Assembly (NCBI GenBank): GCA_030430205.1
Contig: JAUIGE010000014.1
Location: forward strand, 62,001 to 126,000
Length of the DNA stretch: 64,000 nt
Source: Bacteroidia bacterium
GTDB lineage: Bacteria > Bacteroidota > Bacteroidia > J057
Direction: 5' to 3'
Positions 5,646 through 60,802 of the stretch are shown piece by piece; the first letter of the stretch is position 1; the number at the start of each line of letters is the position of its first letter. The notes beneath the pieces are model-generated. The model had not been told where the DNA came from and searched no databases. It saw nothing but the letters and a program-made list of their open reading frames with translations. The translations under genes were made by a program, and so were the position numbers.

Positions 5646-6860
5646 ATGTACAAGCTTCCGACAATTCCGCTAATATTCTTCCTTTTCTTGCCCTTTCTGG
5701 GCCTCCAGGCCCAGCCCGCAGACTGCGCACAGGCGCAGGAACTCACCCTCAGCCTCGACAAACGAATGTTTGTCCTTGAAGCGCCCGTAGGGCCGGGCGA
5801 GGTCAACGAAATCTCCGCGCCCCGGCGCGATCCTTATTTCTTCCGCGAAGAGCACTTCACGCATTGGTTTCAGTTTGAAACGCCTTTTACAGGCGTTTTG
5901 AGCCTGGAAATCCGCCCGCTTAACGGGCAGGATGATTATGACTTTCTGCTATTCAGAGATAGCACCGGGCGCATGTGTGAGCAGATCCTCAACAAAGAAA
6001 TTTTGCCTATTCGTTCCATGATCTCCCGCAACGATACCAGCATACAAAGCCGGACCGGGCTGGACGCCTATGCCCGGAAAAAGCACCAAAAGGAAGGCCC
6101 CGGCGATGCCTACACCAAAGCTATACAGGTAGAAAAAGGCAATCGCTACTACCTTGTCGTGGACAATGTATATGGCGGGGGCGCAGGCTATGAGCTGGAG
6201 TTGTTTTTCTTTTACCTGCCGGATATCCATGGAACCGTAACCGATTCCGAAACAGAAAAGCCCATCTCAGCCACCGTTTTTTTGGAACGGGTGGATTCGG
6301 GGGAAAGGGTGGATTCGGTGAATAATGATCCGCAGACAGGCGCTTATTCTTTGGACAAACCGCTGGAATATCGCCGCGATCACAGGCTTTCCTTTTATTC
6401 GGATGGCTATTTCCTCAAACACGAATCTCTCGAATACAACAAAATCCGCCGCAACCATGGCAAGCCTATAGATGCTGCGCTGGATCCCATACGCGAAGGC
6501 ATGCAGCTTACGCTGGATGATATCAACTTTCGTCCCGGCTCGCCGGAGTTTCTGCGTTCTACCTTCCCCAAACTGGATGAGACCCTTTCGCTCTTAAAGC
6601 AATATCCCAGCCTGGTGGTAGAGCTTCAGGGCCATGTGAATGGCGTGGGAGTTCACGACTGTGAAAATGACAAGTTCAGCAATGAGCTGAGCTGGGAGCG
6701 CGCCCGCGCAGTGAAACGCTATATGGTGGAACACGGCATCGCCGATGAACGGATGGAAGTGCAGGGCTTTGGCTGCACCCAGATGCTCTTTCCGAGCACG
6801 ACGAGCGAAAAGGAGATGGCCGCCAACCGGCGGGTGGAGATGAAGGTGCTGAAGTATTGA
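5646..6860 (+). CDS. OmpA-family outer-membrane-associated protein
   Basis: 404 aa. A signal peptide (PLIFFLFLPFLGLQAQ) is followed by a jelly-roll-like domain of about 170 residues (HFTHWFQFETPFTGVLSLEI), then a carboxypeptidase-regulatory-like beta sandwich near residues 195-275 (DIHGTVTDSETEKPISATVF). The last 115 residues are an OmpA C-terminal peptidoglycan-binding domain (INFRPGSPEFL, LQGHVNG, LSWERARAVKRYMVEHGI, NRRVEMKVL). This order is common in Bacteroidota, where the OmpA domain anchors a periplasmic or surface protein to the wall. The gene stands alone. A run of 7-bp repeats starts on its stop codon. Confidence 0.88.
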   Translation: MYKLPTIPLIFFLFLPFLGLQAQPADCAQAQELTLSLDKRMFVLEAPVGPGEVNEISAPRRDPYFFREEHFTHWFQFETPFTGVLSLEIRPLNGQDDYDFLLFRDSTGRMCEQILNKEILPIRSMISRNDTSIQSRTGLDAYARKKHQKEGPGDAYTKAIQVEKGNRYYLVVDNVYGGGAGYELELFFFYLPDIHGTVTDSETEKPISATVFLERVDSGERVDSVNNDPQTGAYSLDKPLEYRRDHRLSFYSDGYFLKHESLEYNKIRRNHGKPIDAALDPIREGMQLTLDDINFRPGSPEFLRSTFPKLDETLSLLKQYPSLVVELQGHVNGVGVHDCENDKFSNELSWERARAVKRYMVEHGIADERMEVQGFGCTQMLFPSTTSEKEMAANRRVEMKVLKY

Positions 6861-6885
6861 GAGCAGAGAACAGAGAGCAGAGAGC
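6860..6885. repeat. short heptamer repeat (AGAGCAG / AGAACAG)
   Basis: Directly on and after the OmpA-like stop codon lie three and a half 7-bp units: AGAGCAG, AGAACAG, AGAGCAG, AGAGC. The same 7-bp period occurs in two other sequence families in this window. Confidence 0.6.
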
Positions 6886-8541: not shown

Positions 8542-8545
8542 GAAG

Positions 8546-8573
8546 TTTTGAGTTTCGGGTTTCGGGTTTCGAG
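8546..8573. repeat. heptamer array A (TTTCGGG type), 4 units
   Basis: Four 7-bp units (TTTTGAG, TTTCGGG twice, TTTCGAG) begin 5 bases after the asnS stop and end 28 bases before the next start codon. This is the shortest of five arrays of this unit in the window. Confidence 0.8.
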
Positions 8574-8601
8574 AAATATTAGGTGCAAAAAATGAAAACC
8601 T

Positions 8602-9417
8602 ATGAGCTTTATACAAGCAAAAACCGTTTTCAATAATTTCATAGAAAAATCTCATTTCCCAGGGCCTTACGAAATCTTAAATGAAGAGAAAGTTGGGAAA
8701 TCAGATTGGATTTTTAGTTGCCTTCCTATTAGTACCATTGAGGCTAATAAGAAAGGAGTAGAAATTGATGGCGGATTTGTAAAATTTTTAATCTCTTCGC
8801 AAAATGAGGACGTGATCTTAATTAGAAGTGGGCTGACAGTAGGGTTGTATTTCAATTGGCTCAATAAAAAGCATCAAAATTTTGAGAATTTCAGAGATTT
8901 TGAAAACTATTATTGGGATAAGATTTCTAATAACACTGATGTACAAGCCCAACTCATTTATAGAAATTCTATTGTAAAAGTAAATCGAAAAAGAATTGTC
9001 CATATTATCGGTGGGAAAAAGAACTATTCAGTCAAAATTCAAAATATTAGAGCAATAGGAGAATTATGTTATTTCTATGATAAAGTTGAATACATTGATA
9101 CAATGGGAATTTTAATTTTAGAAGGTGGAGAATATTTTTACTTCTCATTATATTCAAATGGAATGTATGAATTGAATTCACAGTTGGAGAAGAAAGTGAA
9201 AAATTTTATTCCTTCTTGGGAACCAAAATTAGAATTAAAAAATAGTTCTTGGGGAATTTGGTATTCAGGTATCCAAGGCAACTTAACAGGCTGGAAAAAC
9301 TTGTTTAAAGATTTTGAGGTTTCTTTTGAGGACTCAGATAACCCAAAAAGAATCCTGTATCCTAATATAGTTGGAAGGCTTTCAGACAAAACGCTTAAAA
9401 ATATAAATTGCACCTAA
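8602..9417 (+). CDS. hypothetical protein, AT-rich orphan gene
   Basis: 271 aa with no signal peptide or membrane span. It is rich in Asn, Lys, Ile, Tyr and Phe (SDWIFSCLPISTIEANKKG, ENYYWDKISNNTD, WGIWYSGIQG). The DNA is visibly richer in A and T than the asnS gene before it and the genes after it, which suggests recent acquisition. The alternating hydrophobic pattern suggests mostly beta structure. I recognise no family. Proteins of this look are often cytoplasmic partners or immunity proteins in accessory islands, but nothing in the sequence proves that. It is bounded upstream by heptamer array A and downstream by a strong hairpin. Confidence 0.7.
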   Translation: MSFIQAKTVFNNFIEKSHFPGPYEILNEEKVGKSDWIFSCLPISTIEANKKGVEIDGGFVKFLISSQNEDVILIRSGLTVGLYFNWLNKKHQNFENFRDFENYYWDKISNNTDVQAQLIYRNSIVKVNRKRIVHIIGGKKNYSVKIQNIRAIGELCYFYDKVEYIDTMGILILEGGEYFYFSLYSNGMYELNSQLEKKVKNFIPSWEPKLELKNSSWGIWYSGIQGNLTGWKNLFKDFEVSFEDSDNPKRILYPNIVGRLSDKTLKNINCT

Positions 9418-9897
9418 CTTTTAAGGAATAACGGCTGGGACCCCAGGGGGCGTTCCGGCCGTTATTCCGGCGCCTGCCCTGAGTCCTCGAAGGGTTGTGC
9501 GATGCCCTTCGGGCTTCAGGGCGGGCCTTACGCTATGGGTATAGAAAAAAAGGAGGGGTAGTTGGCGGGCTTGTCTGCCTGGGCAACAGATAAAAACGGG
9601 CGGGATCAACAGTTTTGGTACAGCGAATACAGCTGTTAATCCAGTGACGTTCTTTTCAGAAATTTTTGCTTTCATAGTTTTGATTTTTATTTGTGAAAAT
9701 CCCTATGAAAGCATTTTTTTGATCAAAATAGTGGTACACAAGGGCGGGGGCTGCCCGAAGGGCTTTGTTCAACACTTGCCTACCCGCCCAGCCGCCAACC
9801 AGGACGTGTTATGAAAGGCTGGCGGGTAGGCGGGCGTTACCCGAAACCCGAAACCCGAAACCCAAAACCCGAAACCCAAAACCCGCCCCCCCCTCTC
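9418..9897. other. gene-poor 480-bp stretch with hairpins and a doubtful small frame
   Basis: This holds a perfect 11-bp hairpin (GGAATAACGGC 9425-9435 with GCCGTTATTCC 9458-9468) just after the orphan gene. A second stem (GCCCTGA/TCAGGGC around 9475-9525) and a third (CCTACCCGCCCAGCC 9779-9793 with GGCTGGCGGGTAGG 9817-9830) follow. The first could end transcription although it lacks a T tract. An 84-codon minus-strand frame (9421-9675) runs through the stems and is probably not a gene. Confidence 0.5.
9839..9885. repeat. heptamer array B (ACCCGAA type), 6 units
   Basis: ACCCGAA three times, ACCCAAA, ACCCGAA, ACCCAAA, then ACCCG. It ends 12 bases before the stop codon of the minus-strand four-helix-bundle gene. 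With array C it brackets that gene in the same orientation. Confidence 0.85.
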
Positions 9898-10287
9898 TTA
9901 CTTGTACTTTTTCCCAGTAAAAGGGCTGTCTTTTAGCTTCCTTATCAGACTTCCTGTCATATTTGCTAAAAGATCTGCTTCGCTATACAATTTTTGAAAC
10001 AAAGCTTCATCGATATATGAGGCATCAAAACACCTATACAATTGTGATTTGAGTTCACCGATGGATCCTTTTGAAATGGATAAAAATTGGCAAAACTCCT
10101 TGTTGCCATCTCTTTCAAATCCTTCAGCAATATTATCCATAACTGACCCCGCTGTCTTTGTAATTTGATTTTTCAGGGCAAAATCTCTCTTTAGCTGGGT
10201 TGAAGAACTAATTCTGTAAATTTCTTTACACAGATACCTTGATTTTTGCCAAACAATCAAGTCCTCAAATTTTCTAATTGTTGCCAT
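9898..10287 (-). CDS. four-helix bundle protein (23S rRNA intervening-sequence protein family)
   Basis: 129 aa. The opening RKFEDLIVWQKSRYLCKEIY, the central AGSVMDNIAEGFER and the late KGSIGELKSQLYRCFD match the S23/IVS four-helix bundle family, small all-helical proteins found as orphans, within rRNA intervening sequences, and as relatives of the accessory protein of diversity-generating retroelements. Their biochemical role is mostly unknown; some bind nucleic acid. Here no rRNA or reverse transcriptase gene is near. The gene is flanked on both sides by arrays of the same heptamer (9839-9885 and 10355-10434), which suggests that gene and repeats may travel together. Confidence 0.9.
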   Translation of the reverse strand: MATIRKFEDLIVWQKSRYLCKEIYRISSSTQLKRDFALKNQITKTAGSVMDNIAEGFERDGNKEFCQFLSISKGSIGELKSQLYRCFDASYIDEALFQKLYSEADLLANMTGSLIRKLKDSPFTGKKYK

Positions 10288-10354
10288 TTTTTTCTCATAT
10301 TAGACGTCCCAGAACAAATGGCATCAACATTTTTCGAAAGAAAAGAACTGAATA

Positions 10355-10434
10355 ACCCAAAACTCGAAACCCGAAACCCGAAACCCAAAACTCGAAACCC
10401 GAAACTCGAAACCCAAAACTCGAAACCCGAAACT
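10355..10434. repeat. heptamer array C (ACCCAAA/ACTCGAA/ACCCGAA), 11 units
   Basis: Eleven exact 7-bp steps from 10355 to 10431, in the order ACCCAAA, ACTCGAA, ACCCGAA, ACCCGAA, ACCCAAA, ACTCGAA, ACCCGAA, ACTCGAA, ACCCAAA, ACTCGAA, ACCCGAA. It ends 5 bases before the ATG of the next plus-strand gene and starts 67 bases upstream of the four-helix-bundle start codon. Confidence 0.9.
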
Positions 10435-21317: not shown

Positions 21318-21323
21318 GGGATG

Positions 21324-21435
21324 TTTTGGGTTTTGTGTTTTGGGTTTCGGGTTTCGGGTTTCGGGTTTCGGGTTTTGTGTTTCGGGTTTTGTGTTTCGGG
21401 TTTTGTGTTTCGGGTTTCGGGTTTTGTGTTTCGGG
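21324..21435. repeat. heptamer array D (TTTCGGG/TTTTGTG), 16 units
   Basis: Sixteen 7-bp steps with units TTTTGGG, TTTTGTG and TTTCGGG, several times alternating strictly between TTTTGTG and TTTCGGG. It lies directly upstream of the minus-strand FAD/Fe-S gene; the RNA sense is CCCGAAA/CACAAAA. It is the longest array of this type in the window. Confidence 0.9.
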
Positions 21436-48871: not shown

Positions 48872-48961
48872 GGACAGTGGACAGTGGACAGTGGACAGTG
48901 GGCAGTGGGCAGTGGGCAGTGGGCAGTGGGCAGTGGACAGTGGACAGTTAACCGTTAACTG
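48872..48961. repeat. heptamer array GGACAGT/GGGCAGT (11 units) plus palindrome
   Basis: Eleven 7-bp units: GGACAGT four times, GGGCAGT five times, GGACAGT twice (48872-48948). The last unit runs into the perfect dyad CAGTTAAC-C-GTTAACTG (48945-48961). It lies 92 bases upstream of the katG start. Confidence 0.85.
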
Positions 48962-60714: not shown

Positions 60715-60725
60715 GGGGAAGGTGG

Positions 60726-60802
60726 TTTGGGGTTTCGGGTTTTGAGTTTTGGGTTTCGAGTTTTGGGTTTCGGGTTTCGGGTTTTGGGTTTTGAGTTTTG
60801 GG
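60726..60802. repeat. heptamer array E (TTTCGGG/TTTTGGG/TTTTGAG), 11 units
   Basis: Eleven 7-bp steps from 60726 to 60802, units TTTGGGG, TTTCGGG, TTTTGAG, TTTTGGG and TTTCGAG. It starts 12 bases upstream of the minus-strand start codon at 60714, so on that strand the leader RNA is CCCAAAA/CTCAAAA-rich. Array C also has 11 units. Confidence 0.9.

Follow-up and report, generated by a model that had tools for sequence, protein, structure and literature searches.

A gene for a small four-helix-bundle (FHB) protein lies between two arrays of the tandem heptamer AAACYCR in the window, a 64,000-nucleotide stretch of Bacteroidia contig JAUIGE010000014.1, and the question that this locus raises is whether the gene and its arrays belong together as one genetic unit. 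The original prediction, made from the window alone, was that the gene and the direct arrays bracketing it form a unit of about 600 bp that may move or be maintained with its repeats.

The FHB gene and its arrays in the window

The presence of an intact 129-residue IVS-type gene between direct arrays B and C was confirmed by the array coordinates, the open reading frame, the family profiles and the protein fold (Table 1). The protein scores 115.7 bits against PF05635 (cut-off 33.8) and 106.7 bits against TIGR02436 (cut-off 24). Its AlphaFold model has a pLDDT of 93, and the best structure matches of this model are the S23/IVS-family four-helix bundles 2gsc (Xanthomonas XCC0516) and 2rld, with rmsd values of 1.5-2.1. 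The gene is one of four FHB genes in the window genome (7.24 Mb). Avd of diversity-generating retroelements (4dwl, 8ub7) has the same four-helix-bundle fold (TM about 0.7-0.87), but its sequence identity to the window protein is only about 10%, and neither a reverse transcriptase nor a template/variable repeat was noted next to the FHB gene of the window.

The genes adjoining the FHB gene are asnS, ORF271, an 87-aa ORF, and genes resembling TraB and cytochrome c peroxidase (the last two named from a reading of the sequence rather than from a profile match). As anticipated, none of these adjacent genes encodes a reverse transcriptase. No empty site was identified for the window locus, as asnS and the TraB-like gene are not adjacent in relatives, being found there on separate contigs or far apart. 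The unit is situated in protein-coding surroundings, outside a 23S rRNA helix. We class the protein in PF05635 and the unit as IVS-like rather than as a true IVS, because it is not located in rRNA. Phage or viral carriage of FHB genes was considered and dropped: there were no FHB matches in 50,697 phage records and no match in viral contigs scanned with the window FHB protein, and PHROGs and PADLOC searches were empty.

Table 1. Features of the FHB locus and dispersed AAACYCR arrays in the window (positions in the window)
Feature	Position	Strand	Remarks
Array A	about 8544..8573	-	Right after asnS stop; candidate displaced downstream arm
ORF271, 271 aa, no known family	8602..9417	+	Flanked by arrays A and B; may be a nested insert or cargo
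Array B, AAACYCR x5-6	9839..9884	+	14 bp past FHB stop codon
FHB gene, S23 family/"23S rRNA IVS protein"	9898..10287	-	Intact, 129 aa; PF05635/TIGR02436 profiles
Array C, AAACYCR x10	10360..10433	+	Upstream arm of FHB gene; G-rich in gene orientation, like most FHB units
Dispersed ORF-less array, AAACYCR family	21323..21431	-	
Dispersed ORF-less array, AAACYCR family	60724..60800	-	

Repeat calling placed 11.4 copies of AACCCGA at array C (10354-10434) and 6.7 copies of ACCCGAA at array B (9839-9885). Both arrays read CCCGAAA on the + strand and are therefore direct, with B opposite to the usual orientation of a downstream arm. Array A has the opposite orientation, and its complementarity is 97% with C over 30 nt and 91% with B. 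In the direction of the gene, the order is C (G-rich), FHB gene, B (G-rich), ORF271 stretch and A (C-rich). The window copy is thus atypical in that its adjoining arrays are direct, while its complementary arm lies 1.3 kb farther out. A hairpin formed by the B-FHB-C segment was dropped from consideration, as folding gave no stability above that of shuffled sequence (z 0.0). B and C are within approximately 75 bp of the gene on each side; from the density of period-7 arrays in the window genome (38 in 460 kb), we infer that such a bracket is very unlikely to be due to chance, even when intergenic clustering is allowed for.

The explanation that we prefer for this arrangement is that the window unit is a derived copy, in which C would be the proper upstream arm, A its complementary partner, which an insert with ORF271 would have moved approximately 1.3 kb outwards, and B an extra direct array. 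An alternative that may apply to the window copy is that the FHB gene dropped into a single pre-existing array whose two parts are now B and C. No family match was found for ORF271 with PF and TIGR profiles, PHROGs or PADLOC, and no homologues were found at the other loci checked. ORF271 is surrounded by an inverted repeat just inside A, with 15-nt arms at 8574-8588 and 9408-9422 that are 87% complementary. The core of this repeat is TTAGGTGCAA / TTGCACCTAA, and the ORF with its repeat (8574-9422) could represent a separate small insertion. Two GC-rich hairpins are located between ORF271 and array B, at 9425-9468 (GGAATAACGGC..GCCGTTATTCC) and at 9760-9849 (TGCCTACCCGCC..GGCGGGTAGGCG), with no second copy of either in the sampled part of the genome.

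Period-7 arrays beside other FHB genes

The predicted link between gene and heptamer was assessed using other copies of the gene. AAACYCR itself was absent near the remaining FHB genes in the genus and family, and an association with this one heptamer looked refuted until those genes were searched for arrays of any 7-bp unit. Several of them were then found to have a 7-bp array, but with a heptamer that differs per locus, so that the link held for the period and not for the sequence. A test limited to AAACYCR would have failed wrongly, because FHB genes elsewhere in this genome have arrays of TCCATTR or GACGAAT. Heptamers found directly against FHB genes include TCCATTR on both sides (L002), TTCGTCA (L003), ACCTAGA (L035), ATTCAAA (L039), TCTGACA (L042) and TTATCAG/TAACTGA (L043).

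The array detector used for these surveys scores self-similarity at a chosen lag only and assumes no fixed heptamer. Among 116 FHB genes (from the class of the window genome, plus five plasmid loci), period-7 arrays were found upstream of 22, downstream of 32 and on both sides of 15, compared to 0-4 per side for other periods; the far flanks of this set contained 19 period-7 arrays in 256 kb. The corresponding counts (upstream/downstream/both) were 19/17/10 for the 86 genes of an 80-locus scan spanning many phyla, 22/17/12 for 32 gammaproteobacterial genes (with zero adjoining arrays of periods 5, 6, 8, 9, 10 or 11) and 9/11/7 for a further set of 32 FHB genes. Upstream as well as downstream of the gene, summed self-similarity peaks at lags of 7, 14, 21 and 28; these peaks are absent 750-900 bp away. 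When each site was counted once (n=153, several phyla), a clear period-7 array was found within 150 bp in 64 cases, compared to 0-13 for other periods. Positive loci from outside the Bacteroidota include those of Acidobacteria, Planctomycetota, Chloroflexi, deltaproteobacteria and cyanobacteria. We consider it virtually certain that FHB genes are associated with 7-bp arrays.

In plasmid pANA02 of Anabaena sp. 90 (L092), a type I-D CRISPR-Cas operon contains an FHB gene with heptamer arrays, which separates cas6 from cas4. In a Riemerella record annotated as a plasmid (L090, NZ_CP081938.1), lepA and an iron-sulfur assembly gene are beside the FHB gene, and this record is possibly a piece of the chromosome.

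Anatomy and inheritance of the unit

The flanks of FHB genes were scored for complementarity at 153 sites with enough flanking sequence, counting each genomic site once and calling inverted flanks at a score of at least 18. Upstream and downstream flanks were complementary at 99 sites, while 2.4 were expected from mismatched flanks and 7 of 117 control small genes had inverted flanks; about a third of the FHB sites fell under the threshold. Direct flanks were found at 20 of the 153 sites. The upstream arm contains more G than C at 89 sites and less at eight. Where arrays are found on both sides of the gene, the two arms have a matching unit (at most one mismatch, on the same or the reverse-complement strand) in 16 of 18 loci; shuffling of the sides among loci gave 1.6 on average and 7 at most. 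The arms are located a median of 25 bp before the ATG and 9 bp after the stop codon. Based on these results, the usual unit very probably consists of arm, ORF and arm, is about 420-630 bp in length, and has a locus-specific heptamer in both arms with the G-rich arm upstream. The L134 unit of genome G049 was predicted to form a 28-bp terminal stem on folding (z -5.7).

The order of unit variants showed no correspondence between arms beyond chance (22 loci, a comparison of low power). The possibility that the arms are simple recent fold-back copies of each other is disfavoured, as variant order differs between them, with the same low power. In four sets of loci where the FHB ORFs are 64-77% identical and occupy common sites, the heptamers differ, yet complementarity is high within each locus and, in most sets, above that between loci. 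With sites shared among related species and heptamers that differ between them, the units are generally long-lived, and the heptamers change faster than the genes do.

This anatomy matches that of the 23S rRNA IVS of Coxiella burnetii, which has a different genomic setting: the Coxiella IVS is 428 nt in length, contains an S23 ORF and forms a 28-bp stem from its terminal inverted repeats (PMC4990558). Three tandem heptamers (GACAGAT), with a copy number that varies among strains, are found just upstream of the ORF, and the IVS is cleaved by RNase III (PMC4990558). In that study, the heptamers are not treated as part of any wider pattern (PMC4990558). The likeness extends to the 23S rRNA IVSs of Leptospira and Coxiella in general, which have an FHB/S23 ORF of approximately 120-130 aa, stem-forming complementary ends, a length of approximately 430 nt and a sporadic distribution. 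In contrast, the units described here are found in intergenic DNA and operons, their arms are arrays of a locus-specific heptamer, and some genomes hold many copies that lack the ORF.

RNase III cleavage, the placement of the arms right at the ends of the ORF, and heptamers that change at orthologous sites while (in most sets) pairing best within a locus would all fit a different explanation, namely that the arms are only a conserved RNA element (involved in RNase III processing, translation control or termination), that the gene is vertically inherited and that dispersed heptamers are unrelated or secondary. Reciprocal empty sites are evidence against this. In two Nostoc plasmids with backbones of 89-99% DNA identity, the FHB unit is found at two different sites and each plasmid is empty at the site occupied in the other. 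No array is present at either empty site, and both arms were gained together with the ORF. At one of these junctions, the unit is approximately 420 bp in length, has the ends AATCAG...CTGATT and replaces 2-4 bp of the empty site; no clear target-site duplication was found at the two junctions. Similarly, three congeners of G049 have no unit between the two genes that flank L134, a fourth has another gene at this position, and a fifth (G239) has an FHB gene with a different heptamer. Because several units may also be found in one genome, along with ORF-less copies of the same heptamer and polarity (see below), we consider an RNA element alone to be an unlikely explanation.

The evidence supports that the FHB gene and its arrays behave as a unit of approximately 0.4-0.6 kb that is present or absent at orthologous sites. 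The prediction of a mobile or maintained unit was therefore upheld with respect to size and to presence and absence between relatives (Nostoc and the G049 congeners), but not with respect to the bracket, which is typically inverted rather than direct (99 versus 20 of the 153 sites). A mobile origin of FHB units is probable. The 266 FHB genes fall into 160 site clusters and many sites are common to related species, which indicates that most units have been inherited and not freshly inserted.

In Flavobacterium-like genomes (L060, L061, L071, L288, L290 and L294), the FHB gene is found at one common site. The F. columnare FHB gene has been listed between the genes for guanylate kinase and nicotinate-nucleotide adenylyltransferase (PMC5524665). 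Such long retention hints that the gene may be of use to the host.

Dispersed heptamers and the possible origin of the units

In the window genome, 38 period-7 arrays were found in 460 kb, compared to 0-1 for periods 5, 6, 8, 9 and 10. AAACYCR accounts for approximately half of these 38 arrays, and most of the arrays are not accompanied by an FHB gene. There are 1,095 exact 20-mer matches to three AAACYCR units in this genome, while in the family the heptamer was found only in two genomes of the window genus (13 genomes searched). Period-7 arrays in the window are mostly a few to approximately 100 bases from gene ends. Arrays of other heptamers are also found there, at 48872-48959 and 6859-6885 (GGACAGT, with 11 copies, and GAGAGCA), and the genome sample contains the further families AATCTCT, AACTGCC and AAGACTG, so several heptamers coexist. 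For most of these, no FHB gene with the same unit is known in the window genome. Window-like AAACCCG/AAACTCG arrays are found in a Bacteroidales contig, where they adjoin an FHB gene, and also in G224 (L247 and L323); as they are absent from the other members of the window's family, this suggests either convergence or transfer.

ORF-less copies of the flanking repeat are dispersed in the window genome, G049, G673 and others, though not in every genome. In G049, where a few of the stretches sampled had been selected for a match, the commonest array unit is AATACTC, which is the arm unit of L134, and its copies include ORF-less hairpins of the same polarity. Among arrays found 0.4-2.5 kb from FHB loci, 22 of 42 have the unit of the FHB arm, compared to 2.9 (maximum 9) after shuffling. 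Two predictions recorded beforehand also proved correct: G673 and G461, the sole gammaproteobacterial genomes (of 369) with GGGAATC and CTAAGGG arrays, respectively, carry FHB units with those arms. The FHB gene of G673 contains a frameshift, with a match to XCC0516 in the first half of the gene. Sampling of 400 kb away from FHB genes in FHB-rich genomes identified 12 arrays, eight of them in one genome, and no arrays were found in 312 kb sampled from FHB-free genomes. Universal dispersal in FHB-rich genomes is ruled out, as most of those sampled have few or no arrays, and ORF-less heptamer dispersal is therefore lineage-specific. It is possible, though we hold this with some reserve, that FHB units are the source of dispersed heptamers.

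The second explanation to be weighed is that the arrays came first and that FHB genes insert into or beside them as preferred targets, the window bracket being one split array. The direct orientation and common family of B and C are as expected from such a split, and AAACYCR 20-mers are abundant in the window genome. We nevertheless consider this explanation improbable for three reasons. First, both Nostoc empty sites are without an array and the arms were gained with the ORF. Second, other arrays are almost absent from many of the genomes that contain FHB units. Third, the arms are usually inverted, an arrangement that the splitting of one array cannot yield. Finally, the bracket might be a mere coincidence in a genome rich in slippage-made arrays, since period-7 arrays occur about once every 12 kb in the window genome and mostly lack an FHB gene. 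This is highly improbable, as the association extends across phyla, to other heptamers and to genomes that have no dispersed arrays, and slippage accounts for neither the restriction to period 7, inversion nor fixed polarity.

We therefore return to an insertion unit, and consider it fairly likely that the window gene belongs to a widespread IVS-like class of such units which, together with their ORF-less derivatives, seed heptamer repeats. The proposed unit is a single FHB ORF flanked by two heptamer arrays, usually inverted, which would place the ORF in the loop of a long hairpin. The Avd-like FHB protein may recognise the heptamer arms as an RNA stem or DNA hairpin. As the unit encodes no enzymes for its own movement, enzymes acting in trans may copy it and its ORF-less derivatives into further intergenic sites, in the manner of RAYT/REP or MITE pairs. 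By analogy with the 23S rRNA IVSs, a transcribed stem might allow RNase III to cut the unit out, which would explain its tolerance next to and inside operons. The window genome would have gathered its many ORF-less AAACYCR arrays afterwards.

RAYTs are Y1 HuH enzymes. FHB units resemble RAYT/REP and BIME systems in having a single gene, flanking (usually inverted) repeats and dispersed ORF-less palindromic copies, but differ in that they encode only the FHB fold and no transposase, and in that their arms are tandem 7-bp arrays. Intergenic 7-bp tandem arrays resembling those described here include the GGGNATC repeats of Xanthomonas and Nostoc, the TAACTGA repeats of Beggiatoaceae and the cyanobacterial STRRs, all reported as repeats alone, without an FHB gene. 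GGGNATC is a quadruplex-forming repeat with 70-75 convergent pairs per Xanthomonas genome and no source given (PMC4692102), and TAACTGA belongs to a known heptamer family, again with no source named (PMC4679880). Arrays of both GGGAATC and TAACTGA were found here beside FHB genes (L404 and L043, respectively). A literature search limited to open-licence papers found no published link between FHB genes and heptamer repeats.

An excess of heptamer repeats has been reported for many bacterial genomes, and single-family studies such as those of TAACTGA and GGGNATC name no source. Structures of the four-helix-bundle protein have been solved, but no function has been assigned to it; a tie between the repeats and the protein gives both a testable origin. 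More tentatively still, FHB genes with heptamer arms may be an unrecognised class of mobile element that crosses phyla, in which the FHB protein is the specificity factor that sets the 7-mer, the units and their ORF-less hairpins are the source of the repeats, and the 23S rRNA IVSs are those members that landed in rRNA. The 23S rRNA IVS would then belong to a much broader class, and each dispersed heptamer family would be expected to have the same unit as the arms of an FHB gene from its own lineage. This raises the questions of why the repeat is seven bases in length and how the 7-mer changes while the arms keep matching.

In G631, a gammaproteobacterium with a genome of 1.5 Mb, a divergent FHB-like gene is carried by a segment of approximately 2-3.3 kb that is present in at least 10 near-identical copies (L376-L385). 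Most of these copies also have an ATTAACG array approximately 550 bp downstream, with array length ranging from 0 to approximately 17 units.
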